Source of the DNA: Styela clava
Lineage: Eukaryota; Chordata; Ascidiacea; Stolidobranchia; Styelidae
Assembly (NCBI RefSeq): GCF_964204865.1
Contig: NC_135257.1
Coordinates: 7,338,151-7,402,150 of the forward strand
DNA: 64,000 nucleotides
Direction of reading: 5' to 3'
This document shows positions 29,245 to 60,965 of the stretch, one piece after another. The notes beneath the pieces are model-generated. The model searched no databases. It saw only the letters and a program-made list of their open reading frames with translations, and had not been told where the DNA came from. Both the position numbers and the translations under genes were made by a program. How positions within the stretch are numbered: the first letter of the stretch is position 1; every line of letters begins with the position of its first letter.

Positions 29245-29320
29245 TTCCTCTGCGGGAATCGAACCTCGTCCTGCGTATTACCGCGTGTCTATGCTTCGTT
29301 TGCGCCACCGTTACCTGTTT
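29245..29320 (-). repeat. tRNA-like SINE head in duplication copy A
   Basis: The minus strand has GGTTCGATTCC (box B) preceded by TGGCGCAAACGAAG, which resembles a box A. The counterpart at 42476-42550 has GGTTCGAATCC. Both lie at matching positions of the segmental duplication, so the SINE predates it. Confidence 0.5.
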
Positions 29321-29999: not shown

Positions 30000-30514
30000 T
30001 AGGGTTACCATATTTTTGTGACTTCAAATCGGGAAGCCTCGAAAGACAACGACCCCTTAGCTTCAAATTTTCCGATTTTATTACATAGGCCTACATTCCT
30101 ACATTTAAAGCTGTCTCGGCTGTCTTTATTGACCATATTGTTATCGAAATTTCATGCGCATATTCTCTGTCCAAAAATCGGGTTCAGTTCGAAAAATAGG
30201 AATAAATAAAAAAAAAAAAAAAAAAAATAGGAAGGAATTGACGTTAACGATACCGGTACAAATAATTCGAATTTAGACTAATCAGTATTGGTTTTACATG
30301 CGATACGTCTGCCCTCAATAGGAATTAGCGGGAAACGAACGCATTCACCTCCAGTAAGTAGGCTAGCGCTGCGCTACGCAGAAACAACAGTAACGAGAAC
30401 ATGTTTGTGTATTATGCTGGAAAAGCGGGACTTTTGGCTGACTTATCGGGACGGCGGGACAAAACGCTGGAAAGCGGGACTGTCCCGCTTAAAGCGGGAC
30501 GTATGGTAAGCCTA
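30000..30514. mobile_element. hAT-type MITE present only in duplication copy A
   Basis: Termini TAGGGTTACCATA and TATGGTAAGCCTA are inverted. The 8-bp duplication CCCTTACC flanks both sides (29992-29999 and 30515-30522). Several GCGGGAC motifs lie near the right end. At the matching place in copy B (about 43002) the sequence runs through without an insert. Confidence 0.92.
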
Positions 30515-32950: not shown

Positions 32951-35900
32951 TTATGTGCTTATCGGAACCTTTATCTTATCTTTATTTAATAAATATGGAT
33001 TTATATCCAATATTTTCTTTTCTTGAATGCAGTGATATATGTAATCCTCTCGAACAATTGGAATCTAGAAAACATGTGAATGTAACGTGAGAATCGGGCA
33101 CAGCACTGGTTGACAGCTCTGACAAGTACAATACGGTTATGCTTGAAAAAACTGACTATTTTAAGGGAAACTTGGCACAAGTCTATTATTCACAATGGGA
33201 ATGTTTTTCCAGACTTGCCAATATTGAATAAAAGGATAGATTATGGCGGTGTATAGTATACTCAAAAATACAAACTTGAGCTCTTTTAGAATCCCGCACC
33301 AATACTGTATTTTTCTTGAAGTCTTTGTCTGAACACACTAAAAATGTATTGTTGAATACCGTGTTGACGTTGGGCACTGAAAATAAAACTTTGTTGTGAT
33401 GATGCAGACATAAATAATGATTCGTACACAAAAACATGCAGTTATACACACGGAAATTATCGTTGAGTGCCACTGATAAAAGTTAAACCATGCAAAGTTT
33501 TCCTGCGGCGTGTGATGAAGTATAGCATGTTGTAATTCAATTCGATACTAGTTTTTCTTAATCAAATTTTTAAAACGAAGTTTACATGGGACATCCTGGA
33601 AATCAAAATAATTTAAGCTAAACTAGTTATTTCGTTATACAAAATTTAAACGTTACCTGGTCTTCCCCCACATCTGATGATCAAATCAGACATCGTTTCT
33701 TGTTTTGCGCCAACTTTCTTATCACGTAACGCTTCAGACACAAGAATGTTTTGAGCTTTGAAAACACTACAATAAAACAGTCTTACTTTATTCGCTGATT
33801 ACGTCTAGTTCATTTAATGGGTGCGTAATGCAAAATTTAAATATATAACTCATTTTTTGTATTATTGCATATAAACTTTGTGTGATACCCATGTATCAAA
33901 TCACAACTCTGTTTAGCTGTTTGCTAAGACTCTTGCATCACTCTCTTGGAACTTTACAGTCAACTATCATTATGCAATTTACAAGTGAACCATTTCACAT
34001 TACATATATATTCATATGGGCCCCTACAATGAAATGAACAACAACCTTGGAGGAAACCAATTAGAGATTGTTTTTAATATAATTGAGTTGAAGCGTTAAT
34101 TAATAGAGGTGAATGCATAACTGACAAATTAGTTTCAACACGATATGCTGTCAGCCAACCTATTTACCTCGTAGTTTGAAACGTTTTCTTCTCCTTCTTG
34201 GTGCGTTTCACGATCTGAAGGTGAAGAAATTTACTCCGTTTATTTAGGTATTAAATTCACTAGATGTTTACCAAACAAATTTAGGAGATTACTCACAAAA
34301 AAAACGAGACTAACATGTTGTGGAATAGTAATTCTAAAATTTTCTAACATATAGCATTCAATAATCAACCCACCTTTTCATATTGTCTAAGCTTCTTTTC
34401 AATTCCAGGAGGCAAATATGGCTGTTTAATTCTTGGATCAAAAACCCCTTTGGCTGTTGGCATTTCTGTAGCTATGGAGGATTGCATTGCAAAAAGTCTA
34501 CCAAGACTTTCTTCTCTGTAAGTAGAAATAAGCAAACTATTTTCCATTGAAAATTTTCTAATTTTTGCCGACTTGAAACTTGAATGTCAGAAACATCCAA
34601 TGAATAGAAATTGATCTTCAAGGAAAATATAGCCTAGTTTCGTATTGATACCTCGTTAATTCAAAAGATAGCAGTCGTTTGCGATTGAGTTTATAAAGTT
34701 ATTCCAAATAGCAACTCAATGATTTGAGTGATGTTTAGTATCAGATATACAGCTCTAAATTAAAATCGGTCCACTCGACTCAAGTTAATCTGGTGAATAA
34801 TTTGTATTGCTTACGCAAACATTTATCACTAAAACCCAAGATCTTACAATCTTTATAAACGTACGTTTTAATAGTTTTTCCAAAATTAAGTTTCTTTATC
34901 CAGCCATCAGCATCATCGTTGAGTTGTTTTGCATATTTACTGCGATCTCCTAGAATAATCGTATATTGTTTTTTAATTTCATTGATTTCTAAAATTGCAT
35001 CTTGGATTGCCTTCCCATGTCCTTTCATATCTTCATTGCTATATGAAAATAAAGTTGAATTTTTTGATGTACTGGTTAATTTCACTCTACATCAGTGCTC
35101 TTCAACAGGGGTTCCGCGGAACCCTAGGGTTGCTATGCAGTGGGGTTCCGTGAGTTTATAGGGTTCCTCAGGGGTTCCGCGTTTTTTTTTTTCAGGGGAA
35201 ATCATTTCTTGCTTCAGCATGTTGATGCGTCATTATAAATATACTTAGACCACCGTGTCTCATTCAAACTCCCAAGTAGGCCAATTCGTTAAACAGGAGG
35301 TTTAGTCACAGTGCAGTTAATGGACAAAACAGAAATATTTTCGGTTACGGACAGTGCAGTTAATAGACAAAACAGAAATATTTTCGGTTGTTGCGTCACT
35401 TTAGTCATTGTTATGCAACAAACAAGAACGATATTGTTGCCCATAGTTACATGATGTACAAAGTATGTAGATATTGATTGGGTTTCTACAAGACCAACTA
35501 CTTTTTCCATTTTCTATGCTTTTGCGTCGGTGGATCCGTATGCATAGAATGCAAAGATGCTGTAGCAAGAGTGGAGATAACTATCCTGAGTAATTCGATA
35601 AATAGCCTTGCTGGTTGCTGCACACTACTAACCCAAATATATTTCTGTAACGTTTCGTCTGACCAAGGTCAAACTTCCTCAGACATGCTTATTTTAACTA
35701 AAGCAAGAATAGCAATTGTATAATTTACCATTCTTGCTTTAGAAATATGTATGTCTGAGGAAGTTTGACCTTTGCTCAGACTAAACGGAACCGGAATATA
35801 TATGTGTTAGTGTGCAGCGAGACTCTTTATTGAATTACTCAGGATATGTAGATATTGCTCGAGACAAGAGAGAGTATATACTACAAAATAGAGTTGTTGT

Positions 35901-38900
35901 TCAGCTTTTCGTGTTACGAGTATTTCGTGTTTTTTTTTTATTCTGTTAATTGGGGTCCCATAAAAAACGAAAAATTATATCAGGGGTTCCACAATAACAA
36001 AAAGGTTGAAGAGCACTGCTCTACATATAATCGGAATTGTAAACTTAACAGTTATATAAAAAAATCTCATATAGGATTTTTAACATAAGTACAAAATGCT
36101 GTATATATATACACACAGCATAACCAGTCGGCAGCCAATTGGATAGGCCGATTATGGAGCAAAATATTCAATATTTTAACGCAACATTCGTTATCTAAAA
36201 TATGATTTTAGGCGAACATAGAGATATAGCCTATAGTGCCCTAGTTGATTTAGACTAGAGTACACAAGTATTGCCAAATTGCTACAAGCCCAACTTACAT
36301 AATATAATATTCAGCGTTATTTATTCCGATCATGCACATTTTTCTGTATTTTTCTTCAGCAATACAAACGAGAGAAGTCTGAGCTTCTATCCAATTGACG
36401 TTAACTGTTTTTTGAAAAATTGTGAACGACGATATTTCGTCCATGATACTTGCTTCGTGACCTGAAATTTAATACAATTTACAATATACAATACAATGTA
36501 CAATATTATAATTTTACAATATTTCTTTCCGATGTCGGCAATACTAATATTTTTCATGTAGAATTATCGAAATTTGACTATATGGTTATATTTTGGCCCT
36601 CCCTTTTAAAAGCCTACTACTACAGCAAAACCATCGTAAAACTATAAATCGATATCAGATTTTAAAATTATATTGCTTATCGTTGGTTCAGACCAGATTA
36701 GTTTTTTTATTTCCAACAGACTGTTCGTTCAGTCTATTGTCTTCTATGTTAAATCAGTAATATGTTTTTACCCTTTCTCTCTCCCGTTTTTTCGTTTTTG
36801 CATTCGCTCAAAGTTTTTGTGCATAGGATCACAAAATCATCTATATTCTGTTTATTCATCTTGTCGTCAAGATAACTGACTTTTATATCGACAATATGCT
36901 GCTCATCCAACTCCTGTGTAGAAAAACAGATAGATATTCATTCTAAAAAAGGATTACATTACCCCAAATTGTTTACTTTTCACGTTGCTTTATAACGTTG
37001 GAAACATTTAGTTTAGACCAAACAACATAGCCTACCTCCAATTCGTTCTGAGGCAACACGAGTGTAAATGGAATATGCTTCTTGGTATCTTCTGGCATTG
37101 CATGTATGAAGTACTTCAGCATCCTTCCAGAGGATTCCTGTAAATGTATATTATATATTCATAATATATTTGTTTTTATAATATATTGTATTCAATATGG
37201 CCAATCCGGTGTTCAAAACAAAAACCCAATGATGTTAATGGATCAATACTGTGTTTCAGATCTTACCACCTAATCAAATTAATACGATTCCACAAAAATT
37301 CCAAAATGTTAATCCAGTCACACACAAAAACATAATCGCTGGACAATGAATTAGCACATGTCAAACTGGAAACAAGAGTTTACTTGAATGAATAGTCTAA
37401 TGATTTATTCGCTGATGACTACACAAATTTTCATATACATTTTCTAGTTTTCGCAAAATAATATTTATATATGCACTCATCATGTGGACATGCATTCATG
37501 ATGCAGTAAAATGGCAAAGGAAAGAGCCAAATATTTGCCACATAATGCAATTTTTTGAATTTGACAGAACATCTCATTGTAGTTCTCATTGTGATTCGGT
37601 CATATGTGACTGATGTTGAATCGTTGGCGCAAAAACGTCAAAACCTTTGTAATTCAATAACACAAGGAAAATAATCCTATCACAATTACCAGTAAATGTT
37701 TTCCAGAAATGTGATTCTCATCGAAACTAACTCCTTTCAAGCAGTTCATGTCGATACTGACATCGGTAACTCGAGTTGTTTCCCTGGAAACATTGTACAA
37801 AGTTTGTGTTCTATTTTTTATTGTTATCGGTATTGAACAAGTACATTATACCCTTCCCAAAAACAAACAAAAGTCTACGCGTCTATGGTTACGAAGCGAG
37901 TTCGTAGATACCTGTTTATGCAAATCAGAAAAGATAGCAAATATTATTGACATGATTGTGTATAATTGCTTTTATATGTACCTAAGAAATACAGGTATTA
38001 GCATGTCAGCCTCAAATTCCTCTTCTTCGTTCAACCAATAAAACGCATCACTTCCGAGATGTCCTGCAATCTGAAATATAAAAAACAATTCCGTCGAAAA
38101 CGAAAGGCTAGTATTTCAAAATCAAAGAGTTGATATTGTAAAAAAAAAATCAACCCAGATTTTAAAATATCTCGTAATTTACTCGAAATTAGATCAATGT
38201 ACACCTATATGCTAAGAAAAAAATGAACGTGTATGTTGCTATCTATTGCCAGTGGCGCATCTACGTAAAAAGGCGCCCATGTCAGAGTTTGAAAATGCGC
38301 CCCATTGTTGTCGGATTGAGATATTTGTACGTTAAAATTTACGTAAAAATAGGAGTTTCAATTATTTCCATTCGGAAATTATTTTATTGAAATATTTCAT
38401 TATTAAAACATTTCGCCCTTTTTGCGTTTCAATCCAAACGGCTGCTATAACCTAGATAGAACACTGTCTATAACAGCCAAATCTGACGACTTGAAAGAAG
38501 ATGAAAATCGAGTAGGGGGCTTTTGTTAAAAGTTTCATAGCTGGCTATTGATTTAAATAATTGATGTAGCTTCGGCCATATTCTGTCAATGAATGATTTA
38601 TATTATATCAGTGGACCGTAGCAAATTGTTTTGGCTAATTGGACTATTATCAAAACCATTAGCACTCCTAGTTCCTATTAAAATCTGGATAGAACTTTTG
38701 CAACGTATCAGTTTACCTCGTTCAGCAACACTGGTGCGTATTGACCGATTGTAAATGCGGAAATCGGTACACAGCTAGTTTTATTCATTGTCTTCTGATA
38801 ATTTCTGTATTTGATGACAAGTTGCTCCGGATCTGTTTCACCCAAATTGGCCATTCCGTCCGTGAATACAATCATCAAATCTCGATCATGCTTTCCAGAA

Positions 38901-41175
38901 TCCCTAGATAATAAGGTACGTTACAAAAACGTAAGAAAACGAAACTGTAAATTTGTTTTATGGAAGCTCACTGTTTAAGCACATGTAATCCTGTCATCAA
39001 TCCAATTTCAAGATTAGTTTGACCTCTTGTATGAAGACTTCTAATAACATCTTTTGCTTTAGTCTGAAAATATATATATACAGATATACGTACAAACATA
39101 GATGGTATGGCCCAATATTATTTCATTGTGTTTACTGTTGAATAATGGTCGTAACAAATTTGTTAAAAATACTATACGAAATCGACCAGAAACCCAGACA
39201 ATACATTGTACCCAAGCCTAGATTTGGTTTAATGCCAATTTTATAAGAACACAATCTTTTCTGTAATCGCTTTTACACAAACAGAAGCTCACCCAGAAAG
39301 CAAAAGTTATTCATACTCAGATACGTACCCGGCCTGTACACAAGACCAGGTAAAGAAACTAAACTTTGTGTAAACATAATATCGCAATATATAAATTGTT
39401 TATATAGCGGACCGATTCAATTATTTTAAAATACTCTGAATAATAACCAACCTTAGCGGCATTGTTCATCACAGTCATCTTCATATCTGTATTGACATCA
39501 TGAGAAAACGTAACTATGGCGAGTGAATCTTCATTAGCGATGTTTTGAACGACCAGTTCCGCGAATATCTAAAAATAAATCATAATAAAATATTAGATTT
39601 TCTCCATGCGTTTGGCTGTTATTCAAAACGTTGCCATTTTTTAGTAGTATAGTAGGTCGGGGTAGTTCGGACACCCGGGGTATGATGGTCAGTCAAAATA
39701 AAATCCTCCTACTAGCGACACCTCGCGCTTTTTCGTCGCTCAAAACGCATCGCGTGAAAGAGCGACATCATGCGAACAACGACAGAACCAAGATTTTACA
39801 TTCCAGGCTCGACAACTTACAAGGCGGTGCTTTTTGGGGAAAGTGTGTTTTTGTTGGGTCAGAAAAACGTCAAATTATAGAGTCCCATGGTGGCGAAGAA
39901 TAATTTTAGCCGGAAAAGTCTGCGAACTCGGTTCTATTTTGTTTATTTGTTGAAAGTAGTTGCATTAGATCGAATAAATTCTTTAGCAGACTGCCAGTAC
40001 TCATATTTGGATTGGCAGGGTCACTTAAGAGGTAGGGTGGATTTTGAGTGGGGGAGGGGGGAGGATTTTTTTCAATATAGTCTGTTGGGAATGTCAATGG
40101 CCCGTCGTCATCGAAACTTATAAATAATTATTTTTTGGGAATTAGTTCCCTTTTACAACAAAGATCAAAAGCACACTCATCGCCATATTTATATTGGGTC
40201 TCTTAGAAGTTAAGCCCGGCGTAAAATTTCATCTTACCCCGTCAAATTATTTTTTTCATATGCGTATAAAATACGCCCAAGGTTATGCCAAGAAATTACA
40301 AAATAAATACTTCTAGAGGTAGTCCGTGTAAAGAAGATATAAAAATTGCGGTTGAAAAAGCGCAAACTAAATTTTAAATTTCTAGTTTTCCTAAATCTGT
40401 TCAAGCTCTTTCGAAAATTGCCCTGTTATGTCCTTTATGGGGTAAGACGGACATACTTTTTAATATGCAAGAAAAGTGATCTGTTTAAAAAAAATTTAAG
40501 AGACATAATCCTGGGCCATCTAGGCGTTGACCGAAGTCTTATGACCGAAATATTAGACACCATCAAGTTAATTTTGGTGTGTGTCCGTCTTTCCCACAAA
40601 GTGTCTAACTTACCCCGATATTTTTTTAGCTGAAAATCGGGCGTAAATTCCGATTCGTTGCTATGGCAACAATGTGCAAATGTGGCAAGATAGCTGGAGG
40701 GTGGGTGCATGAATCAATCGTAGAACGAATGCAGCTGCGACATTATTTGAAGAGTTATTCAAAATAACTTATTAGTGGGTCCGACTTCCCCCGACCTACT
40801 ATATAGTATGACCTTGACTCTGTCAAGTAAAGATTCCGATTCTTTGCCTACGAGACTGTCCATGCTGCCACTCACGTCAATTACAAGGACGTAACGTAAA
40901 GGTAGCCGGCGTTGAAGTTTTGTTTCAATAGCCGATAATTCCATCACGACTTCAACGATCTAAAATGTTTAAATTCAAAAATTAATTACGTCTAACGTTA
41001 TGTATCGTCAGCAACCAATGCACTATACTCCCAGTCTCAGGTACGAGGACAAGATACATTTTACTTCAATGCTTACCTGCTTTTGAGTAACTTGACAAAA
41101 ATATTTGGTTTGAAGTTGATCTTTGCTTTTGGTGGTCGAGACTGCCGTAGCACCAACTGCTTGTGTTTTCGACAT
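32951..41175 (-). CDS. VWA-BRCT protein, tandem copy A, 16 exons
   Basis: Exons: 41077-41175, 40813-40959, 39452-39568, 38972-39063, 38717-38903, 37982-38070, 37690-37783, 37036-37137, 36772-36913, 36299-36461, 34865-35038, 34374-34515, 34168-34214, 33657-33766, 33276-33376, 32951-33064; all phases agree, 639 residues. VWA domain about 52-235 with complete MIDAS: D61, S63 and S65 in DVSGSMD, T137 in GQTNL, D167 in VFTDG. A probable beta-sandwich follows (about 236-356), then an alpha-helical region (about 370-530) with a short basic KRTKKEKK stretch. Residues about 533-632 read as a BRCT domain: NILVSEALRDKKVGAK, IIRCGGRPG, FLVCSDKDFKK, PIVREDYIYHCIQEKKI. The usual BRCT Trp is Tyr here. There is no signal peptide or membrane segment, so it is probably intracellular. 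Function unknown. The exon 2 donor is a weak GTCATA beside a transposon. Confidence 0.85.
35093..36018. mobile_element. hAT-type element in intron 10 of gene A
   Basis: Termini CAGTGCTCTTCAAC and GGTTGAAGAGCACTG are flanked by the 8-bp duplication CTCTACAT (35085-35092 and 36019-36026). Repeated GGGGTTCC motifs lie near both ends. The same intron of gene B (46545-46802) is only 258 bp and lacks it. A second foldback element is nested inside (35582-35848), and a 43-bp unit is tandemly duplicated at about 35309-35393. Confidence 0.93.
35582..35848. mobile_element. Foldback MITE nested inside the hAT element
   Basis: Ends ATCCTGAGTAATTCGATAAA and TTTATTGAATTACTCAGGAT are inverted. The interior is also palindromic: AAGGTCAAACTTCCTCAGAC pairs with GTCTGAGGAAGTTTGACCTT, and the ATTCTTGCTTTAG stretch pairs around the centre. 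The whole stretch could form one long imperfect hairpin. Confidence 0.85.
39648..40803. mobile_element. Inverted-repeat transposon in intron 2 of gene A
   Basis: Ends TATAGTAGGTCGGGG and CCCCGACCTACTATA are inverted, with a second matching block GGAC/GTCC inside. Gene B has a 77-bp intron at this position with no insert. The right end lies 9 bases from exon 2 of gene A. Several open frames inside (39631-39903, 40346-40633) have no recognisable domain. Confidence 0.85.
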
Positions 41176-41385
41176 TTTAATGTTAGCTTTTAATTTATCA
41201 CACTCCAATAATTACGATCTACATTATGGAGAACAAAAAAAAACAGCCTTTTATCGATTCAATCATCTTAAAGTAATAAAAATGCAATGTCGATTTAGCC
41301 ATTAGTTAAGAGAAAAGCCATTTTCTCCAAAACAACAATAAAAACCTCAGCGATAACAATTTGGCAAAACTATCCATCGCCCATT

Positions 41386-42149
41386 TCGTGCCCAAAAATG
41401 CATCATCATTAATGTTAGACCTACATGGACGAAAGTACTGAAGGGAAACATTTTAACATGATGAGCAAAGCAATTCTGTTTTTGCCTTCTGAGGCCTTCT
41501 GCTTTTGCGTGGTCACTCTACAGTAATCACCAAATCTATACAACTCTTGCATAGGAAATGACCAAGTGCGCAATTTGATACTAGGGAAATCTACAATTGC
41601 TATTTCCTGAATCCCCAGTGTGAAACTATTGCTTTGCAAAACTTAAATCTGCAAATCAATTTCTTAATGTACAGTACAGCAATGGATTTTTTCATCCATT
41701 TTACCCACTTTGAGTCATATATGCAAAATAATCACTAAACTGCCCTTTACAGCTCTTTTGAGGAAGAAATTGTACGACTACTTAAAACATTGGATGTATT
41801 TCAATGGCTTCAGTATCATTCGACTAAGTAATTACCGATTATAGGCTTAAGTTACAAAGAAACGAAAGTGCTTGACAAAAGAACTAAGTATTTGTTTTCT
41901 TTGCCTGATTCGCAGACGCTGAGATATTTAGACAATAGAAAAGCTTTGTCGAGTAGGTACACAACAAATGCATCTGACATTTTACTGTACGCATTCTGTA
42001 TCTAATTAAATTAATACCTGTAATTTAAATAAGTCAATAAGTGAATGCAGCTCTACTTCGCTTTTTATCGTTATCTATAAGTATCTGTCCTTTCCGCATT
42101 TGCTCTTTCTTCGTCCTTACTGGCGCCGCCCCCCCTCATTTATTACCTT
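41386..42149. other. Spacer between the two duplication copies
   Basis: No gene was recognised. The spacer lies between the 5' side of gene A and the repeat-rich left flank of copy B. The promoter of gene A probably lies at its left end. Confidence 0.45.
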
Positions 42150-42475
42150 CACCGCCCGCCTGACTTCGTCAGCTCTTTGATCGACCCTTTCTTCTCTCGA
42201 CCTGTTTTCCTTCACTCGAATGCATCCGTCGACCTCCTCATATATTCTAATCGTTAGGTTCCAAACTAACCTGCACTCGCTGCTCTTTCTCCGTCCTCGC
42301 TGACTCATGGGGCCCTCTTCTAATATTCCTTCGACCGCCTACCCACCCTCTCCCTCCTCTCGACCCGCCTTTCTTGTCTTGAACGCTTTCCCATCGTCTG
42401 ACACATTTGAAGCGAAATTAATTCTTTTGGTCCTCCTGGCTAGCTTTCAGCATACCTCTGTACCCGTCATTAAAA

Positions 42476-42550
42476 TTTGGCCTTCCTTGCCGGATTCGAA
42501 CCTCGTTATACGTGTTACGCATGTCTGTGCTTTCTTTGCGCCCCCGCTAC
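42476..42550 (-). repeat. tRNA-like SINE head in duplication copy B
   Basis: The minus strand has GGTTCGAATCC (box B) preceded by GGGCGCAAAGAAAGC. It is the duplicate of the element at 29245-29320. Confidence 0.5.
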
Positions 42551-44457
42551 CGGTTGGACGAGTGGAATCGAAATCTTACTTAAGCAACATATTTTATCGA
42601 CGTCATACTTTGCAATCCCTACCATGGATCGAACAATATTGCACAGACATGCTGCGTTAGTTGGAAGCACATTCATCCATGAGTGGAACTGCTGAAGGGA
42701 AGCCGTTCTCACCTTGATCTACCATGCGCTTTGGCTTAACTACTGAATACGAGCTTGCATTCAAAACCGTTGGATCTTTTGCAAATGATAATTTCACGTT
42801 TTCATGCAAGGATCAATCAAAAGATCACAATTCTTGGTTTAACAGAACTAACCAAAATGCAGCTATATTTTGAAGAAGGCGTTGCTTTGTTCAGCCATGT
42901 GCTGCGGTTTTGAAATTGAGGTGTCACGATTGTGCAAGGTGATCCAAAACAAGTCGATTGATGAACGAGGTTGGGTAAAATTTACAATTATTGTTAACCT
43001 TACTATTTTACTATGTGCATTTTTATAGATTCATTGAGACTATGGAAATTTTAATGTTTAATTGAGACGCAACAAATTGCTATAGCGGAATATTTGTCCG
43101 ACAAATGTAAATGATTAATTTTATTCAAATTTCACGGGGTTCATAATTATTGAAAAATCGAATTACTTAAACATTCCCTTTCGTTTGGATAGATTTTATA
43201 GACACTAATATACTTTTGAATTCTTATATTGCTTATTATAGTATCGTTAATTTCACGCGCGTTACATAAATAAACTTGTCAATATATTCGTTAAATACAA
43301 GTATAAATAAACAAAAATATTCAAATTAAAGAGCTATTTTTTTCAACGCCCAAAGATGGCATAATCAAGATATATTTACATGAAAAGCCAACAAGGCTAT
43401 AAATCGCGACAATGCGATACCTTTACGAGAAATAAAGTAATTAGGTGCGATGTGCGATATTACCCTTTTTTGTATGTGATGACGTCATCAGATTTGAAAA
43501 TATTGCATCTTGTGAAAAAATACTAAGATAACAATAACATAAGTACAAAAGAATTCATATGTACATTCGTGCTGTTCAAAAACCATGAAGAGTTAAGTAG
43601 CCAGTGAATGCCGCGAACTTGATCGCACAGCAACAAAAAAAAATTCTGTTATTATCATCTGTCTCATTGGGTTATCGGCAAGATACCTAGAGGCGTTGCT
43701 ATGAACATACGAAGAAGACTTACGGAAACACAGTTTGTATTGGTAACTACACAGAATTAAATATAGAACATCATTTAGCAGCATACAGCATCAACTTATA
43801 AACTCAAATGACTATAGCGCATGCTTTGCGCGCATTTTACAGTCCATTACTTATAACGTCATACGCGCAAAGCATTATTATGTGAGTGTTGGGACATTAA
43901 ATCATTCTATGACATCAAGACACATCATCCATATATTAACTTATCTCTTGAAACATTCTAGATCAGATCAAAGAGCGGAATACATCGCAAAAATACCGTT
44001 CTATTTGTAGTCGATGCCGATATCACAGAAATGGCCGATACCGACAAATCGGTACATTTCTAATATCGATTGCCGCTAACAGTGCATATTAAACGAGTGC
44101 ACAAATTACTTCTTTGATATTTGAATCAATTGGGGATGAAAAATAAATGAAGCAAAAATATTAAAATAACATGAGTTGTACATGCACGAAAAAAAATAGT
44201 AAACATTTTTCTCATATGCATTCTAAGTATTTCTAGGTAGCTTCTTTTCTAACTTCTACTTCATTTTTTCGGGGACATATATATATACATGCGATTGAAA
44301 TATTAGATCATGCTGTATATGCATTATGCTGAATGTATATTTCAGCAACTTCAGGTCTCGATAAAATCGAACATAAATAAACTGTCTTCCGGTATAACGC
44401 ACAGTAATTTATTATCATTTAGTTAGATCATCTGTTTTATCAAACTTAAAGTAGAGA

Positions 44458-47400: not shown

Positions 47401-50400
47401 TAGATAGTCATTAAATAAGTATTACATTATCACGAATTGTTTACTCTTAAACGATGAAAACATTTAGTCTTTTAGACCAAACAACATACTTCCAATTCAT
47501 CCTGAGGTAACACGAGTGTAAATGGAATATGCTTCTTGGTATCTTCTGGCATTGCATGTATGAAGTACTTCAGCATCTTTCCGGAGGATTCCTGTAAATA
47601 CAGGGTGTCTCAAAAGTAAGTATACACATTTAATTTTGATTTGCTTTTCAGGTACTTATCATAGAGCGTTAATTTCTTCAGAAAACATAGTATGGATAAA
47701 TGGTAAAATTTAGGATATGTTTGCATTTTCCGACAACCCACAGAATGACAAGGAGATTAACTGACCCAAGAAATAAAGTGCAGAATTGCTGTTTGGCAAA
47801 AAGCATATCAATCAGTAAAGTAAACTCAGCCTCTCTTTAATAGAGAATTTGGAATTCATTCTGTTGTGAATGTTTTGCTCAGAGCGTCCGCTCCTTGGTG
47901 TTTCTGATCGTTGTGCATCAACTACAGATCCTTTTTTCATAAATTTACGATAAATTACATAAATTGTTCGTCGTGTAGAAGCCGAATTAATTCCAAATTG
48001 TCAAACAGCAATTTTGCATCTCATTTCTTGGGTTGATGAAAAATGCAAACAATACCTAAATTTTACTACTTATCCGTACTATGTTTCCTAAAGAAAAGAA
48101 CGCTTTATGAAGAGTACATGAAAAGCAAATCAAAATTAAAAGTGTATACTTACTTTTGTAAGTACATCTTGTATATATATATATATATTTATATTATTTA
48201 ATAATAACTTTGTTTATAATGTATTGTACAAACACTAAATAATGTTAATGAATCAATTCTGTGTTTCAGATCTTACCAATTAATCAAATTAATGTGATTT
48301 CACAAAAATTTTAAGATGTTACTCCAGTCAAACTCAGAAACATAATAGCTGGACAATGAATTAGCACATGCTAAACAAAATGAAAACAAGATTTCACTTG
48401 AATGAACGATCTACTTGATTTATTTTCTGATGACTACACTAATTTTCATATCACTTTCGTAGTTTAAGCAAAACATTGTTTAAATATGCACTCATCATAT
48501 AGACATGCATTTATGATGCAGTAAAATGGGGTAAGCCCCAGATGAGTCACAAAACGCCATTTTTTCTCAATTTAACGAAATATTTTTGTCCTTGTAATTG
48601 GTCATATGTGACTGATGTTGAATCGTAGTCCTAAAAACTTCAAAACTGTTGTGATCATGAAAATAACCCTATCACAATTACCAGTAAATGTTTTCCATGA
48701 ATGTGATTTTCATCGAAAACAATTCCTTTCAAGCAGTTCATGTCGATACTGACATCGGTAACTCGAGTTGTTTCCCTGGAAACATTGTACAAAGTTTGTG
48801 TTCTATGTTTCATTGTCGTCGGTAATAAACAAATATACCGTTTCCAAAAACAAATAAAAGTCTACGCGTCTATGGTTACGAGTTCGTGATACTTGTTTAT
48901 GCAAATCAGACATGAGAGACTATAATATTTATAACCATAACTTTTGGGTTTTTCAATATAACAACGTAGTTCCTTCAAACCTCGGCTCCGCTTCCAGTGG
49001 TTGAAAATGGTAGCTGAAAGTTCATTACTCATTTCAAAAAAATCTGTGCGCTCCATAAAATTCCTTTTTCCCTACGACGTTTTGTGTGATTACGCCTTAA
49101 AATTTGCGCACTGTACCGTGATTTCGTGATCAAATCTCAGTGATATGGTGGTCAGACTACGGGTACTGTAAAAGACTGATACTTTGTGTTGGCCTCCGTG
49201 TCCATATATTTGAGCATCCCCCCTTTTTATTATGTCATTTTTTCGCACACTCATACTTTGTGTCGAGAAGCGAATGATTGATTGATAGACCAATATAGCG
49301 CCTTTTCATATATTTTCAAATTCGCATTATTTAGTAAATATTATTGACATGATTGCGTAAAAGTGCTTTCATACATTATTTATATATACCTAAGAAATAC
49401 AGGTATTAGCATGTCAGCCTCAAATTCCTCTTCTTCGTTCAACCAATAAAACGCATCACTTCCGAGATGTCCTGCAATCTAAAATATAAAAAACAATTCC
49501 GTCAGAAACAAAATACTAGTAATTCAAATTAAAATAAATATTTCAAAAACATGAACTCAGATTCTAAAATATATTGTAATGCAAAATTAAACCAATTTAC
49601 ACCAATATGCTAGGGTAAAAACAAACGTTTATGTTGCTATATAGCCAGTGGCGTATCTACGTAAAATTGCGTACATGGCAAAGTTTAAAAATGCGCACCA
49701 TTGGTCGTTGACTGATAATTTCAACGATTATAAAAAATTTTTATTGAAATATTTTACGTTGGAAACATTTCGCCCTTTTTGCGCCCCTACCCAAACCACA
49801 GTACAAAACCTCAGATACACCACTGTCCATAACTCTCGAATCCAACAACTCGAAAGAAAATGCAAATCAAGTGGAGGTATTTTGTTGAATGTTTATAGCT
49901 GACTATTGATTGAAACAATTGATGTAGCTTCGGCCATATTCTGTCAATGAATGATTTATGTTATAGCGATGGACCTTAGCAATTTGTTTGGTTAAATGCA
50001 CTATTATTAAACTTTTAGCACTCTCAGTTCACATTAATTTTTTTTGTACTGTATCAGTTTACCTCGTTCAGAAACACTGGTGCGTATTGACCGATTGTAA
50101 ATGCGGAAATCGGTACACAGCTAGTTTTATTCATTGACTCCTGATAATTTTTGTATTTGATGACAAGTTGCTCCGGATCGGTTTCACCCGAATTGGCCAT
50201 TCCATCCGTGAATACAATCATCAAATCTTGATCATGCTTTTCAGAATCTCTAGATAATGAGGAACGTTACAAAAACGTAACAAAATGAAAGAACTGTGAA
50301 TTTGTTTTATGGAAGCTTACTGTTTAAGCACATGTAATCCTGCCATCAATCCAATTTCGAGATTAGTGCCACCTCTTGTATGGAGACTTCTAATAACGTC

Positions 50401-51362
50401 TTTTGCTTTAGTCTGAAAATATATATATACAGATATATATACGTACAAACATAGATGATATGGTTCAATAATATTTCATTTTTTTTTCGAATAATGGTCG
50501 TAGCATTTGTTGAAAACACTGTGCGAAATCCACCAGAAACCCGAACAATACCTTGTACCCAAGCCTGGATTTGGTTTAATTTTGCCAAGTTTATGAGAAC
50601 ACAATCTTTTTCATATGTGCTTTTACGCAAGCCCAAGCTCGCCTGGAAAGCAAAAAGTTGTCATACTTGGGTACATACCCGGCCTTTACACAAGACCAGG
50701 CGAAGGAATCAAACTTTGTGTAAACATAATATCGCAATATATAAAATGTATATATATACATAGTGGAGCGATTCAGTTATTTTAGAATACTACGATTATT
50801 ACTAACCTTAGCGGCATTGTTCATCACAGTCATCTTCATATCTGTATTGACATCACGAGAAAACGTAACTATGGCGAGTGAATCTGCATTTGCGATGTTT
50901 TGTACGACCAGTTCCGCGAATATCTAAATAAAAATAAAATTTTCCCTAGGCAGGTGGCTGTTATTCATAACGTTGCCACTTTTTAGCAGTATAATATTAC
51001 CTTCACCCTGTCGAGTAAAGATTCTGATTCTTTGCCTATGTGACTGTCCATACTTCTACTCACGTCAATTACAAGGACGTAACGTAAAGGTAATCGGCGT
51101 TGAAGGTTTGTTTCAATGGCTGATAGTTCCATCGCGACTTCAACGATCTATAATGTTCAAATTCAGAAATAATTACTTCTAAAGTTTTGTATTGTCAGCA
51201 ATCAATGCAATGTACTACTAGCCTTGGATACAAGGACAAGGAATATTTTGCTTCAATGCCTACCTGCTTTTGAGTAACTTGACAAAAATATTTTGTTTGA
51301 AGTTGATCTTTGCCTTCGGTGGTCGAGACTGCCGTAGCACCAACTGCTTGTCTTTTGGACAT
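44458..51362 (-). CDS. VWA-BRCT protein, tandem copy B, 16 exons
   Basis: Exons: 51264-51362, 51001-51147, 50807-50923, 50321-50412, 50063-50249, 49390-49478, 48682-48775, 47490-47591, 47242-47383, 46803-46968, 46371-46544, 45885-46026, 45677-45717, 45166-45275, 44772-44872, 44458-44571; all phases agree, 638 residues. It is the closest relative of copy A: exon 2 differs at 5 of 49 residues and exon 6 is identical. MIDAS is intact (DVSRSMD, GGTNL, VFTDG). Exon 10 has one extra residue and exon 13 lacks two (basic stretch KRTKMK), so both changes keep the frame. The BRCT-like end is kept (IIKCGGRPG, PIVREDYIYQCIKDKKI). The exon 2 donor is GTAATA, better than that of copy A. No disabling change was found, so this is an intact gene, not a pseudogene. 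Confidence 0.85.
47601..48171. mobile_element. Mariner-like foldback in intron 8 region of gene B
   Basis: Ends CAGGGTGTCTCAAAAGTAAG and an inverse ending CATCTTG are flanked by TA. Long inner arms share AGTATACAC and TTAATTTTGATTTGCTTTTC. The left half encodes, on the plus strand, a transposase-like helix-turn-helix start (CRIAVWQKAYQSV, about 47792-47830). The right half encodes, on the minus strand, KFMKKGSVVDAQRSE (about 47895-47955). The frames are broken. It lies between exons 8 (47591) and 7 (48682) of gene B and is absent from gene A. Confidence 0.85.
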
Positions 51363-51575
51363 TTTATTGTTAACATTTAATTTATCACACTCCAATAATT
51401 ACAATCTACATTATTAAAAAAATATATTAAAAATAACAGCCTTCTATCGGTTCAATAATCTTTAAGTACTAAAAATGTGATATCGATTGTGTCATTAGTT
51501 GCGAGAAAGCCGATTTTCCAACAACAACAGCAATAACCTCAGCGATAAAAATTAAGCAAAACGATCCATGCGAAC

Positions 51576-52849
51576 CAAATGAATCCACAAGTTTTGGATG
51601 CGGCACTGGAAATGAGTTCTGAACTAAATATCCTACATGTCACAAGTACAACGTGATATGGTTTAATATTTTTCCGAATCGACTAAACTTAAAGGGAAAC
51701 CTTTTTAATATTGTGAGCAAAATACTCTTTCCGCCTTTGTTCTCTTAAATTGTTATTTGTTGATCTACTCGACTGGGAGTTGCTTCTTTCTTTCATAACG
51801 TATAGTTTCAAGTTTGTAAACAACAACCATTCAATGTCAACGAGTTTCCATGAATGTACTTATTTCCTATCTCCGATCTAACAAATCTACTTATTTGTTA
51901 TCTCCGACTATTTGTCCTCGTGCTGCTGACTTGTAATATTTCAAGTGTTGTGTCACGGCGACATCTTCTCCAAAACAATACACAACTATGTAGCTTGTCA
52001 TTGGTTGCTTACGACTTTTATGTCAGAAACCGTCCTAACTTCAATCCAGAACCAATAATTTTTGCATATTTATTTGCATTGAACACCAATTTTCAATTTT
52101 GATTTGTTGAGACGAATCCCAATGAAACATATCAGAGGCGGGGAACCCCCGTGCAATATTTGTATGTTTTGCTGTATGTACGAATAATTCTAAAAACTGT
52201 GAATGTATATACAAACGAAAGCCTAAAATTTGTAAAAAAAAATCTTTAAAATGTAGAATGTCTAATAATAGTGATAAACTCAATAAGTATATGATTATAT
52301 TAAAACAATGTAAATATAATAATATAGGGAACCACTGTACTGGCGGAATTTTAGGCCTATGGTGCCACGGAATCCCGCGTGAAAACAACTCCTATACACA
52401 TACAGTATATTGAAATGTATTTTATTTAGGAGTTTAACAAGGAAAGTTTCCGAGCAACGCTCTTCGTCCTAATATTTTAAAAGGCATATTAATAATGCTA
52501 CGTCATTCAAGCTGTCACAATTCGATGACAATATATTATGGTATACTGTAAATAGTATCGGTCAAAAAACGAGCAAAATCTTTACAGCTGAACATTAAAT
52601 AACACTGAAATAAATACATGATAAATTGATAAGACTGAAAAATTTAGAATGCCGAATTCGTAAGAAAAGAATATACAAGGTCGAATGCATAGGATTGAAG
52701 AAACGGCGATCGAGGAACCCATGTGCACCCATCTAATTCTACGATAATCCAGTCATGATATAGTATCCAGTATATGGTAATTTTATCAATTGTTTGAGCG
52801 GAAAATGGGTCTCGCATTATGAAGATCCTTCTTCCAGGCATTCATGATA
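51576..52849. other. Intergenic between copies B and C
   Basis: No gene was recognised. This should hold the promoter of gene B and the 3' UTR of gene C. AATAAA on the minus strand near 52415 may be the poly(A) signal of gene C. Confidence 0.4.
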
Positions 52850-55800
52850 TTAACTTTTTCGAAAAAGATAACTTTCCATATTTAAAAACTTTTTTCTTCT
52901 AATGCATTCAAACAAAAAATCCTTCCGAACGATTGGAATCTGAAAATTAAGACATAATTTCTTAGCATCTTATTATGATAAAATAAGTTATCATACGCTT
53001 ATTAAATATTTGTATATAACTTCTTAGTGAGAATGTCTTTTAGACCCCAGAAATGTGAATATGAAAATTATATATTTTTTAAATTTTTAAATAAGAAGCC
53101 TATTTCCAAAATAATTTATTGTGTGAGAATTGAGACGATGAGTTTACAAATATGAATTTAGTTCATAGTAATTAAAAGTAAATTTCATGTCTGCTGGTAG
53201 AAATCCATCATCAAATCCTTCATTGTACTTAGACTTAGTATGTTATTGAGTATACATTGTACCTTTACTTTTCTAGAATCACGAACTGACATTGAATTTT
53301 TTTTATAATCTTTTTTGCAACAAACGAGTAAGAAATCATCATAGTTCTTTTCGACATACCAGCCAGGTCTCATTTTATAAGGATTCACAATAACAAAATA
53401 TTCTGAAAACAAGTTCTGTCAAATAACACTCGCCATAAAGCTAATTTATTTAATATTTTTTCTAGTTTGATAAGTCCTCAATTTTAAACAATAAGCTGTA
53501 TATATTTAGATTTCTGTATATACATGTTTTACAGTTTTATATATATATAAATCGTTGTATCACAAATGCTATGGTTTTATTAATGCTATGATTTTATTAA
53601 TTTTCATTGATAAAATCGATAACTACCTTGCAATTCATATACTTTAAATGAGTATTATAACAAGATAAATGAATATTATAATAAAATATATTCATATTTA
53701 TTTTCTTTAACGGAAATATTTGACTATTGGCACTATTTGAAAATTGCGCTACGATTGTATGGTTGTATGGTAACATTGGACTTCACCAACAGTTTTTTGT
53801 TTCATCGATTAAAGTCTCTATGTAAAAAGATTGTAAATTAATATTTTTTGAGAAAAATATACAATACCTGGCCTTCCTCCGCACCTTATTACAATTTCTG
53901 CATACGATTCTCGTTTCGCTCCAATTTTTTGTGTTCGCAAAGTTTCTGATATGAGTATCGTTTTCCCTTCGAATACTCTACAGATAAAATTAAAAATTTG
54001 TCATATCGTCACGCTAATAACCGAATTGCGTAAGCCATTTTTAGAAGTTTTGAGAAAAACGTAAAAAACTTCCTAATGATATTGTTATGCCATTGAGAGT
54101 CAATAATTTGCCATGGTTCAATTTTTTGATCGTAGCCGGATTTAAGTTAATTTGTATTATGCAGTTAAGTGACGTCATAATGGCGCACTGTGACTCAGGA
54201 AGAAATGTGTCTATGACTTGGGGACATACGCATTTTTGCAACTTTACTATATGCACCAGTCCTGAAAACCAAACATTCCAAAAACGAATGTATTTCTCAG
54301 TATCTACAATGTCTAATCTCCAAAATAGCTAATCAGTTTCAATTACATTATTTTTTATGTTTAAAAATATATATTTTATCAATATATATAACACGTTCTG
54401 CACACCCACCGAAATAAGACTAAGATTAAATAAAAAGAATAAAACAGCAATGCACCCAATATAAAAGCCAACCAAGGTGTATTGGACTCGGACAATGAAT
54501 ATCACAAGTGCACGCCTTCCTATACTGTAGTATAAATTCAAATTAATACGCACTAAGCTAGAATCCGAGATGCAAAAACTCGAAAATACTTCGCCGAGGT
54601 TATTTTGCCTTTGTGGCGTCACAATAGTCCTGCGGTAACAATGATAAATCATTATGACGAAACAATTTCACAAATGTGCATGTCATACTAAATCTCCGTT
54701 TTTATGAGTTTCGGAATTCTTAAAATAAAATCTGAGTTAACAGACAGGTGCGCAGCATCACATAAATACCTATTTTATAAAAAACTCAAAATTATCAAAA
54801 ATGACTTACGCAATTCGGTTATTAGCGTGACGATATGTCATCTCTGTTTTTCTTTAAAATTCAAGACGATTCTCCGTAATTAAGCGGTTAAGTTACACAA
54901 ATCATAGATGTTTAGACTGCCATACTGTATTTCATTATTTTTGAAATTTGAAAAAGAGCTATGAATGGCGATTTTAAATGTAATGTAGTATATTTTGATG
55001 ATGATGACTTTCAACGAGGTTGTTCTAGTAGAATTTGAGTGATGATTGCCAATCATGTTCTTTATTTAGATGTTTATTTGGGTAGTTATTTACTTTCAGT
55101 TCACAGATGTCAAAGCAACGGCTTTTGAGCAAGTGGATATTATCTCAGAATTGCCCAGTCCACTACCCGTAGCTACGAATAAGCGAAATGTGAAAAATCT
55201 TGGCAGTTTTACATCTAAATACAAATATTCAAACAGATCTCTAAAACGTACTTGGAGGTTCCGAAATCTTCAAGCCTTTTGAACTTTTTTACAATCTGAA
55301 ACAAACGAAAGAGAGAGAGAGATTTTATAGGAAGGAAAATGCGTAAAAATAAATTATTGTTTCGACAAATACCATTGAGTTGGAGGAAATTCCAAATGAT
55401 GCAACTGTTCGCGGAAACAAATAGTCATTTAAGAAGATTGCACAAGATATACGCAAAACTACTGCCAGGTAATATGCTGCGAAGTAATTCACCTAAACTG
55501 AAAAAGTACTTATTTTAAAAAATCAAAACTTTTTATCAACAGGTTAAATACCTACTCGTTCGTATTCTCTCAATCTTTTCTGAATATTTTTGGGCATGTA
55601 CAGTTGTTTTTGCTCCATGTGATAAACACCTTTTGCAACGGGCATTTCTGTAGCGATTGATGATTGTAAAGCTGCGATTCTTCCGTAGTTATATGGACTG
55701 TATACAACAAAATAATAAACCGGAAATAAAAATCAGAATTTTTTTATATGAATTAAAAGATAATTTTAAATAGATAATATAATATCACCAATTGAAATTT

Positions 55801-58800
55801 ATTGTAATATGGCCGAGAGACCATGAATATATTTCATTTGGAAAACGCAAAAGCGTCAAACACAAGAAACCCCAATTTCTTTCATTCTTCAAGTTAATCT
55901 ACCTCTATCTCATTTCCAAACTTATGACTTGCAAATCGAGAATTAGCATCATGGTCAGTGCTCATACATTACTTTAGTAGAAGTATGTACATAATTTAAT
56001 TTTTACTTCAAAATCAGCATAGCAGGTGATAAAATAAAGCGAATTGAAACTGATTACAGAATTAGATTGCAAGACTTTTTTTATATTCCACAAACATTTC
56101 TACATTTACAACAATTAGCTGTGACTTTTAATGGTGGAATTTGATATTTGATAACTTCTGATACATAATAGTTGGCGTCGATTGTTGATTAACGGCGAAC
56201 CCAAACCCTATGGGACAGCATAGCGAGATAGATGGACGCGAACCCATGTGCACGAGTCGTAAGTCATTGTGGCATTGCTGTGTGATGTGAAATCTACCGA
56301 GTTATTAATTGGAAATTTTGGAATGTACTTACTTGGCGATAGATTTGCCAAAGTTCAACCTTTCAATCCAGTCATCTGCACATGCGTCAATTCTTGCTGT
56401 GCACTGATTCTTATGTCCGAAAATGACAGTTCTGTACGTTGTCTTGATGTCGAGGATACTGGAAATGGCTTGTTCAAAAGAATTGACTGTGAGATGATCT
56501 TCCTCTTCTCTAAAACGAATAATAATTAGTATATATTGCAATCGCAAAATATGCTAAGATTCGATGCAAATTGAAGTAAAGTAGATTAAACGGAGTGTGG
56601 AAGGATTGCAACACATCAGTGTATAGATAGAATATTCAATATTGTATAATATTGGGTACCCCTGAAGTATGCGCGCCAAGATGTCGCATAACCTGAACCC
56701 TAACCTGGTACACAACTTGAGTTCAGGTTGTGCGCCATTTTGGTGCGCATACTTCAGGAGGTCCTAAAATTGTATAGAGGAGTTTGATAGCTACCGGTAT
56801 ATGTGGGATTAGTAGCGCGAATGATGAAAAATCTTGATTTACGACGGCATAACATCGTATGTGAGTTTTCGAAAGCGCTACCGGCGCAGGCGGTAATAGC
56901 GCTACTGACCACTGATCGCAACGAACGAGATTTAATTTTAAGTTAATTCATCCGTTTATTAAAGAGTTTTAAAATCTCACAGTATATGGTATAGAACGTT
57001 GTCCAGTTCATTCATACTCAATTCTCTACAATCTTCTCTCACGATCATTTCTAAAGCTTCCTGAGCTGCAATCCAAGATGAATCCACTATATTGTTTTCA
57101 ATCGTGTACGCTGCAATGCCGTCAGTGATATCTGAGTATCTTACTCCTTTTTCTGCCATACAATTGTGAAATATTAAAACAACGTCATAATATACTAGCA
57201 AATTGAACTTTGGTATATGAGCGCACTTAGTAATTACCGATGTATTAATGTATGTAGTAATACATGTACCTACCTCTTTTACCTCTGGCTCTGCATTTCC
57301 TCAAATTCAAAGCAGAAAATAATACAAAACCGTTTAACTCTCTCTTTTTCAAGCTTCCATCCGTAAAGCTAACTTTGATTTCGACAATCCTTTCCTTTCG
57401 AAAATTCTGTAAATTGAGATAATTTTGATTATATGCATATGTTTGATTGAATTTAAAAAACGGTGATATACAATTACATGTATTGTTAGTCGATGTTGAA
57501 AAATTATTACAATTATTTATATTTTTGTCATTATTCCAAACGTGGTAAAGAAATTTACAACTGCAATGTGAGCGGAGTATAAAGTTTAGCGATTGTCGTT
57601 GTTTTCACTCTTATCTGTTATGCGCACGGGTAAAACTGTACAATTTATACATAAATGTAAGGGTATTGTTACTATTTGTTCGCTTTGTAAATGTAAGTCA
57701 ATATGCCTCGAGTCCCAAGATTACTTCTGCTTATTTGATTGACATAAGTTGCTCTATTATACATAACAATATCATATTATACTTTACCTTTAAACTCCTC
57801 TCAGGTGGGATGATTGTAAATGAAATGTGTTTCTTGACTCCTCCCGGTATAGAATGCACAAAATATTCCAGTTCTGACAGAGATGAGCTCTGTGACGGCA
57901 AAATTTTACTGTTGGCGCATTCAAATATAAATAATTAGGTACATTGTAATCACTGAAGTAGTTAAAAATTTTTTTTCTCAGTTAATGTTTCTCTTCAACT
58001 ACTGGACAAATTGCGTTAGAATTTTCAGTGGTTAAAGATTGTTGTTGTCGCTAAACGTTTATTACTTTATTCATTCCTAAATTTTCCATGAATCCCATGA
58101 TATTTGATATCCAAAATTATGCAGTTATATTTTTACTCGTGGAACGCGGTTTTTAATCCGCTAAACGTGACAACTGACTTCAGTTTTGAGATCGCAAACT
58201 CGTGTCACGCGAAAGTCGAAATCTTTTCGATACCAGTGACGCACTGTAAACTAGGTAAGGTAAGTTACTGTAAACGGTAAAGTACTGTAAACGATTTGAA
58301 AGTGCATTTGTGAGTCACATCATTTGATATTTTAATTCACTCTGGCACAATACGCATTAATTGCCATCGTTACATAGGGCCGGGTAATGCTAGGACACTC
58401 CGGGTACAGGTTCTAGTAAGTTCAGAAGTTATCATGCTCCACAGTTGCAGTTTCATCCACTTAGATATGATTTATTGGGAAATTGTGGGTAAAAAATATT
58501 TAGTTTAAGCCTCCTTGTACTTATATTTGAGCATTGTTCTCTTGTTGCTTGAAGTCCTTAAGCAATAATTTACGCTGCCCTGTCTAGATGAGTATTAGGT
58601 ATGGATAAAATGTTACTTGTAAATGTTTTCTTGACAAGGAATCGGCATCGAATGTAAAATCCAACAAGCACTTCATTTGAATAGTAATGTCTGATATTGC
58701 AGTTGTCTCCCTGTCATATAGTGATAGTGAAAAAGCGTAGATAAATAAAAATTAAAACCGCCAAAAAGATTTACATAATCTTATATCAATAGAAGTACAC

Positions 58801-60965
58801 CTGTTTACTAACGAGACGAAGACATTATGCTGAATTATTGATGATATGCTGTTAATCAAGTGGTTATAGAAATATATATAATAACTTATATACTGGCTCA
58901 GTTGTTTTTGTCACCTCAAAAATATTGGAAGAAGCATATCGGATTCAAAGTCTTCTTCCTCGTTCAACCAGTAAAAAGCTTCACTTCCCAGAAAATCAGC
59001 TAACTGAAAACATTACGGATTGATTATAGAAAGTCAGTACAATTCTTTCGGAATTTACGAAGTTAAAAGAATTCAATGATCGTATTTGTGATTGTAACAA
59101 ACTTCTGTAATCTCACTTCTGCTAATAAGACAGGGAGGTATTGGCCGATTGTGAATGCTGATACGGGAACACAAGTTTTTCTTCCCATATTATCTTGACG
59201 TTCTTTGTAATGTTTCACCAGAGCTTCTACATCTTGTTCCCCTGTGTTTGTTTCTCCGTCGGTGAAAAGTATAATGCAGTCCCGGGAATGTGGCGAAGGA
59301 TTCCTGGTTTGAAATATTCTACGTTTAATTGAATGCTCCCTTTCTGCTAGTTTTTTTTTTCAAGGTATTAATTTGTATTGATATCTATACATAAGAACAA
59401 AATTTACTTTGCTATGACATCAAGTCCAGCCATCAATCCGGATTCCAGGTTCGTGTTTTGCTTCGTATGAAGATATTGCACAACATTTCTTGCTAATTCC
59501 TGAAATTAGTAATTAAGTTGATGTATTCTTAGAACTTGCATTTGCGGGTTTTTTATTGTAGTGATGGGATTCAGTTTAATTTTCCCCATCTTGGTATATC
59601 TATTGGCTAATTAAGGTAACCATTGATCACGGCTTTCTCCACACACCACCCAAACGCATCTATTCTTTACTTTTATTTTTTTGATTGCATATGAAGTAAA
59701 CCTAATTTTACACAATAAATAGGCATTGGTATTAAACAAGTAAAGCTATTGACTTTTTCATCTTCTGACATGACAGTCATTTCTAACTCCACTTCTGCTT
59801 CATCGGAAAACGTCACAATTGCCAAAGAATCTTCTTCTGATATTTCATCAATGACTAATTCGGCAAATATCTGAACCAGAAAAATTTAAAACTTGATCAT
59901 TATTGTAGCTTGTATTTAGCTAATAGCTTCACATTAGGATTAACTCGACAAGCATTCAGGATGCTCCGCTTAGATTGGTATTTTAAAGGACAGCCTCCAG
60001 TTTTCCTGACCAAAACCCGTAGACTTTCTAAATTTAATTTTGTACCTTCACTCTGTCAAGAAGTGAATCAGGTCCATGACCGATTTCAACTCCCATACTG
60101 GAGCTTACATCGATGACAAGTACATATCGCAGTGGAATGTGCTTAGTCATTGACTTGTTTGTTGCCCAAATTTCTGTCACGATATCAACACTAGGATCCC
60201 CAAAACTTTTTACCTGCAATGAAAAATCATGAGTGTATAATTACCATGCACGTAAACAAAAATGCTTAAAGAATCCTATGATATTATTTATTTTAAATGG
60301 TCAAATATGACCATGGTTTTTAATATTGGCAAGAGAATAGAACATAAATATATATATGTATCTGTTATATAGGCATGGTTTAATTTATACTGCGTTTATT
60401 TGAGATTTATACTATTTTAGTAATATTTGACTACTTCGACCTTTGACTCCAAAAAGCTCCTTTGACGTTTTCTCAAACCTATACCAACAAGTTTACATGT
60501 TTAAAACCGCAATTTTTATTTAAAATATTCAACCACTTGCCAATATAGACCCCCCCACAATCAATTTTATTTAGAACCTTTTTTGATAATCTGAGTCTCT
60601 ACTATAGATACGATTAAACAATAATTTATACCGAAATTTATGACACATAAAAAATAACTGACAATCTTTACAACAAAGCTTCAAAATCCGTACTTTTCAA
60701 AATAGTGAGCGTCTGCTAAAATTACAATTGGTATGTCACCGTTGAATTATTGCTGATTTGTCACTGTTACGGAAATGAACGAGGAAGGCTATGCCCCGGG
60801 AAGAGAAAAAAAATACGAAGTTATTTATTTTATTCCTATATTCTAATAATTACCAACCTTTCCATTGTTGACCTGGCAGTAATGCTTTGTACAAAGTGTA
60901 TTTCTATCACCTTGACTGTTTCTTTCTTTTTCATCACAATCGCTGTCACTCGATGATGATGACAT
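52850..60965 (-). CDS. VWA-BRCT protein, tandem copy C, 16 exons
   Basis: Exons: 60858-60965, 60046-60213, 59754-59870, 59408-59499, 59117-59303, 58915-59003, 58617-58710, 57788-57889, 57274-57406, 56981-57152, 56333-56509, 55556-55697, 55252-55295, 53868-53977, 53263-53402, 52850-52939; all phases agree, 654 residues. Intron positions and phases match copies A and B throughout, but the protein is clearly more diverged. It has a Ser/Asp-rich start (MSSSSSDSDCDEKER), an intact MIDAS (DVSSSMG, NTNL, LFTDG) and the same middle and C-terminal parts. BRCT-like motifs are IVIRCGGRPG, FLLVCCKKDYKK and IPIVRKDFLFECI. Its C-terminus is shorter by about eight residues and exon 15 is longer by 13. The exon 3 donor GTCAAT is unusual. 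Confidence 0.85.
53998..54842. mobile_element. Foldback element in intron 13 of gene C
   Basis: The left end ATATCGTCACGCTAATAACC then GAATTGCGTAAG recurs inverted at the right end (CTTACGCAATTCGGTTATTA then GCGTGACGATAT). The arms are about 55-60 bp and the whole about 845 bp. Open frames inside show no recognisable protein. Confidence 0.8.
56655..56764. mobile_element. Short foldback MITE in intron 10 of gene C
   Basis: CCTGAAGTATGCGCGCCAAG on the left pairs with TTGGTGCGCATACTTCAGG on the right, separated by about 60 bp. The inner part also pairs (TAACCTGAACC with GGTT). A target duplication was not clear. Confidence 0.75.

Follow-up and report, generated by a model that had tools for sequence, protein, structure and literature searches.

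What kind of protein arises when a VWA domain stands at the head of a polypeptide chain and a BRCT domain at its tail, and is such an arrangement genuine or a product of gene prediction? The question is posed by a 64,000-nucleotide stretch of the Styela clava genome (contig NC_135257.1, here C9; C9:7338151-7402150), referred to as the window in what follows, in which three neighboring genes, A, B and C, each code for a VWA domain with a metal ion-dependent adhesion site (MIDAS), a middle region and a C-terminal BRCT domain. We find that VWA-BRCT is a real domain combination, carried by a small dispersed gene family and not amounting to a new kind of system. As to what the proteins do, we assign a probability of roughly 55% to the reading, based on sequence, that they are two-headed adaptors, soluble and probably intracellular, which make up a family of paralogs. 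Further copies of the family, D to I, were retrieved from elsewhere in the genome that we searched (376.6 Mb, 379 contigs). The genes of the window and their parts, with the supporting evidence in parentheses and positions counted from the first base of the window, are:

52850..60965, minus strand: gene A, 16 exons, 654 amino acids, VWA, middle region and BRCT in that order (spliced model, Pfam)
58915..60213, minus strand: gene A exons 2-6, VWA domain with MIDAS DVSSSM / NTNLESGL / FTDG (spliced model, Pfam, motif check)
55252..58710, minus strand: gene A exons 7-13, middle region, no recognized family match (spliced model, PDB and Pfam searches)
52850..53977, minus strand: gene A exons 14-16, BRCT domain (spliced model, Pfam, PDB profile search)
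44458..51362, minus strand: gene B, 16 exons, 638 amino acids, architecture of gene A (spliced model, splice-alignment, Pfam)
49390..51147, minus strand: gene B exons 2-6, VWA domain with MIDAS (spliced model, Pfam, motif check)
45677..48775, minus strand: gene B exons 7-13, middle region (spliced model, PDB and Pfam searches)
44458..45275, minus strand: gene B exons 14-16, BRCT domain, AATAAA 45 nt past the stop (spliced model, Pfam)
32951..41175, minus strand: gene C, 16 exons, 639 amino acids, near-copy of B (spliced model, Pfam, dN/dS)
37982..40959, minus strand: gene C exons 2-6, VWA domain with MIDAS (spliced model, Pfam, motif check)
34168..37783, minus strand: gene C exons 7-13, middle region (spliced model, PDB and Pfam searches)
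32951..33766, minus strand: gene C exons 14-16, BRCT domain, AATAAA 43 nt past the stop (spliced model, Pfam)

The three genes were modeled from splice sites and from their similarity to one another, and the introns are of the GT-AG type throughout, with a common phase series of 0,0,0,2,0,2,0,0,1,2,2,0,2,1,0. An earlier description of the locus made without database searches, which we call the sequence-only reading, had proposed three genes of 16 exons with matching intron positions, and this is what the models give; even its outer limits are exact, position 32951 being the last base of the gene C stop codon and 60965 the first base of the gene A ATG. Except for the stop codon, a splice-alignment script found the exons of gene B again, although the profile used includes B, so that this agreement checks the script more than the gene. 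Protein A shares 46% amino acid identity with B and with C.

Pfam searches, proposed together with the sequence-only reading, place both a VWA and a BRCT domain above the curated cut-offs in all three spliced proteins. For the VWA-type models the best E-values are 2.5e-14, 2.2e-13 and 6e-14 in A, B and C, respectively, and the VWA profile also exceeds its cut-off in each of the three other copies scanned (D, E and I). The MIDAS predicted near the N-terminus is intact, reading DVS(S/R/G)SM, (N/G/Q)TNLE(S/I)GL and FTDG in the window proteins, and its DxSxS, T and TDG residues are kept in 9/9 family copies. These residues are common to MIDAS-type VWA proteins, from which A-C differ in having no signal-peptide-like stretch and in ending with a BRCT domain. 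The PDB sequence closest to the VWA part is inter-alpha-trypsin inhibitor heavy chain H1 (E 1.5e-5), and the VWA profile of Ro60 matches the window proteins as well; in both cases the likeness is confined to the VWA domain. NCBIfam returned VWA-region matches far under cut-off, along with weak unrelated ones. An exon-by-exon search of the genome with PF00092 listed 345 candidate places, 150 of which were scored, giving at least 151 matches, and this count points to a large VWA repertoire.

The C-terminal segment is a BRCT domain, as had been claimed for it, with BRCT_2 E-values in the full-length proteins of 9.4e-9 (A), 1e-10 (B) and 5e-10 (C). The isolated BRCT parts match the same model in 3/3 cases (best E 3.3e-11), and the alignments cover positions 1-85 of the 86-position profile in A, 13-85 in B and 14-85 in C. 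The older model PF00533 matches full-length A, B, C and D below its cut-off in each case and rises above it in the joined exon pieces of G and F. When the BRCT part was used in a profile search of the PDB, 13 distinct sequences were obtained at E up to 1, with mostly weak E-values (3 of the 13 below 0.001), deriving from Mdb1, Chs5, Rap1, Rhp9/Crb2, PARP4, Dpb11 and Brc1, all seven of which we take to be BRCT proteins. By sequence, the first four are the closest solved BRCT domains, sharing with those of the window both the BRCT_2 profile and the GG turn.

Two departures from the usual pattern recur in all seven BRCT domains that we compared (A-D, F, G and I). Phe or Tyr occupies the position at which BRCT domains usually carry Trp, and Glu is found at the position aligned with BRCA1 G1656, presumably the glycine of the Ser/Thr-Gly pair that makes up the phosphate pocket. 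In the alignment that pair is replaced by Ser-Glu in A-D and by Ala-Glu in F, G and I. Canonical phosphopeptide binding is therefore disfavored, and classical phosphopeptide recognition, one of the BRCT roles named in the sequence-only reading, is not supported by the comparison.

Between the two domains lies a middle region of about 330 amino acids which, judged by eye, may be beta-rich in its first part and helical thereafter. It gave no match at E up to 10 in a PDB profile search; a profile built from six sequences gave two weak PDB matches (E 0.38 and 0.4), and Pfam returned one sub-threshold match, to DUF6735, in one of the three members. A supposed resemblance to Vwaint/WAV3-like regions was not borne out by the Pfam and PDB searches, no such match being listed for the middle region of A-C at Pfam E up to 10, in a search whose filters drop weak matches and with a library that may lack a WAV3 model. 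A-C contain no signal-peptide-like or membrane stretch, the largest 19-residue hydropathy value being 1.41, and on this account the proteins are probably intracellular, in keeping with the earlier proposal. Basic stretches are found in the linker ahead of the BRCT domain.

How far the architecture extends beyond the window was established by a search of the genome with protein A, which produced 46 exon matches at E up to 0.01, located in the window and in six other places, all of which were retrieved for study. The expanded family envisaged from the window thus comprises at least nine copies in this genome, distributed over three contigs (C9, C1 and C13), with VWA identities between copies that range from 42% to 94%. 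In a tree of the VWA parts the C13 copies form a group apart from the rest; in this tree, for which the program gives a long-branch warning, 4/6 inner branches lack resolution. In the alignment copy D (C1:7259395-7269216) has 16 exons, with lengths that yield the phase series of the window genes, and it matches both VWA_2 (1.4e-12) and BRCT_2 (1.8e-6, at 28.6 bits where the cut-off is 27.3). On C13, copies F, G and I have the VWA domain and some or all of the middle region, and each of the three BRCT exons is matched in them; the joined exon pieces score 1.1e-9 (38.8 bits) for G and 3.2e-10 (40.6 bits) for F with BRCT_2, and the BRCT donors have the phases seen in the window (phase 1 for the first exon of G and of I, phase 0 for the second of G). 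Altogether 7/9 copies retain all three BRCT exons with no stop in the matched parts, one copy is damaged and one has no convincing BRCT.

The alternative of two adjacent genes, one with the VWA exons and the other with the BRCT exons, joined in the models by an artefact of prediction, could appeal to the AATAAA motifs that occur inside introns too. It has to contend with AATAAA motifs only 43 and 45 nt past the BRCT stop in C and B (424 nt in A), with linker-exon phases that are identical in A, B and C despite 46% amino acid identity between A and B, with a copy D that keeps both linkage and phases on another contig, and with C13 copies in which a BRCT comes after the VWA domain at a distance of about 10 kb or less. 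A fusion artefact, which we hold to be exceedingly unlikely, is rejected on the strength of the linkage repeated on C1 and C13, and the recurrence of the architecture on other contigs establishes a paralogous family in its place. A second alternative would make A-C rearranged or degenerate relatives of PARP4, the vault PARP. In PMC4245714, PMC2964712 and PMC10450202 PARP4 is described as containing both BRCT and VWA domains in a different order, together with a PARP catalytic domain, the order in PARP4 being BRCT, PARP catalytic region, VIT and VWA. Of the 13 sequences that the BRCT part drew from the PDB, 5 are PARP4 BRCT chains, and these match weakly (E about 0.1). The best matches there are, however, Mdb1 and Chs5, the middle region is without a match, and the domain order is reversed relative to PARP4, in which BRCT comes first. 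Moreover, Pfam at E up to 5 lists no PARP catalytic, WGR or VIT domain for the window proteins, so that A-C are not PARP4; descent from it, very unlikely in our estimate, was rejected on the same grounds, and the contrast drawn by the sequence-only reading (VWA first, BRCT last, no PARP domain) is upheld.

The reading of the proteins as two-headed adaptors fits an intact MIDAS and a BRCT domain in a protein with no export or membrane signals. From what the residues suggest, the N-terminal VWA domain would most likely hold a divalent metal at its MIDAS and through this metal take hold of a partner by an acidic residue, the middle region would serve as body or spacer, and the single BRCT domain at the C-terminus would provide a second contact, the ligand being more probably a protein, or a nucleic acid in the basic copies A-D, than a canonical phosphoserine peptide. 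What the BRCT domain contacts is the point at which a further explanation enters, namely that it is a nucleic-acid-binding tail through which the partner held by the VWA domain is anchored on DNA or RNA, perhaps inside the nucleus. The BRCT domains of A-D are strongly basic (net charges of +14, +9, +7 and +8, isoelectric points of 9.5-9.8), the basic stretches in the linker point the same way, and there is a precedent in human PARP4, whose BRCT domain binds nucleic acid via an electropositive surface according to PMC12212138. The corresponding domains of F, G and I have net charges of -1, -4 and 0, which is acidic or close to neutral, and a nucleic-acid role can therefore not be general. We regard such a tail as possible, if on the unlikely side; pocket residues and charges taken together favor a protein as the general ligand, nucleic acid being a competing candidate in A-D. 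Of the other elements of the sequence-only reading, a nuclear location, adhesion-type ligand binding and confinement to one lineage gained no support from the analysis, which covered a single animal genome. Quite unlikely, in our view, is the more far-reaching proposal that these genes represent a multi-copy animal family, not described before, whose products would act in recognition inside the cell and would link a metal-dependent VWA sensor through a new middle domain to a BRCT head without its phosphoserine pocket, with copies gained and lost as in recognition or defence families.

Several observations weigh against the adaptor reading. The middle region is without a recognized fold in the PDB and Pfam searches, and the charges of F, G and I just given count on the same side. 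At the thresholds used, no splice site was found for the second BRCT exon of I and no fitting acceptor for the first two BRCT exons of G. Copy H on C13 has a stop inside its middle BRCT exon, in the region of about 2787162-2787485; its first BRCT exon was not recovered, and it is possibly a decaying copy. In copy E (C9:11185940-11192227) the VWA domain and the middle region are clear, and no convincing BRCT was found in a search extending to 11209900, some 17.7 kb beyond the middle region, the best match (E 0.046) being on the opposite strand. It follows from E and H that the BRCT domain is not kept intact in every copy. On the strand of E itself 13 residues at 11195823-11195861 (tblastn E 6.2) resemble the first BRCT strand of the C13 copies, and E may hold a diverged BRCT.

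The family adds to the animal repertoire a VWA-to-BRCT order with an intact MIDAS, PARP4 having the reverse order, and it offers a set of recent and old duplicates, including one with a damaged BRCT and one with none that is convincing, suited to testing what each domain contributes. Should the BRCT domain bind a ligand other than a phosphopeptide, the Glu at the pocket position in 7/7 copies would be a concrete handle. The VWA-first, BRCT-last order was not found described in the literature searched, which consisted mostly of papers outside subscription. No relative was seen in four scans of viral contigs or in two of prokaryote contigs, each scan resting on two short peptide patterns, and a tblastn search of plasmid records with protein B gave one weak match, to the VWA domain only.

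Genes B and C arose by tandem duplication and show purifying selection. Their exons are 89-100% identical, with 75-91% identity over aligned intron bases; the differences fall 30/22/69 over the three codon positions, and the ratio of nonsynonymous to synonymous substitution rates (dN/dS) is 0.24 overall, 0.29 in the VWA domain, 0.25 in the middle region and 0.20 in the BRCT domain. Since B and C are near-copies, A, at 46% identity, and the paralogs elsewhere provide the more independent support for the architecture. Comparison of the window with itself shows that the duplication takes in some 200 bases of sequence upstream of the genes and extends into their 3' flanks, where 28897-29652 matches 42147-42887 and 30955-31488 matches pieces of 43488-44283:

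28897..31488, no strand assigned: downstream flank of gene C, pieces of which recur downstream of B, part of the tandem duplication unit (self-comparison)
42147..44283, no strand assigned: downstream flank of gene B, with pieces matching the C flank (self-comparison)

The two genes differ in several introns. Intron 7 of gene B contains an insertion (47595-48177) that is not present in gene C and ends just upstream of exon 8; it is flanked by inverted repeats of about 150 bases with 84% identity and looks like a DNA transposon, and the Pfam search of an open reading frame inside it brought up nothing convincing. Introns 10 and 2 of gene C (the latter at 39655-40801) are about 1 kb longer than those of gene B, and a 265-base stretch of intron 10 (35582-35846) matches its own reverse complement at 77%.

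As for the remainder of the window, Rfam gave no match at gathering score and a transfer RNA search none. Three other coding segments, all on the minus strand, have Pfam matches: exon-sized open reading frames at 6412-6645 and 14821-15057, matching a RING finger (1.2e-7) and GDPD (1.4e-11), respectively, and an open reading frame at 22910-23149 with a CH_2 sperm-protein domain (E 8e-25), which accords with an animal genome and which we take to resemble SPEF1.

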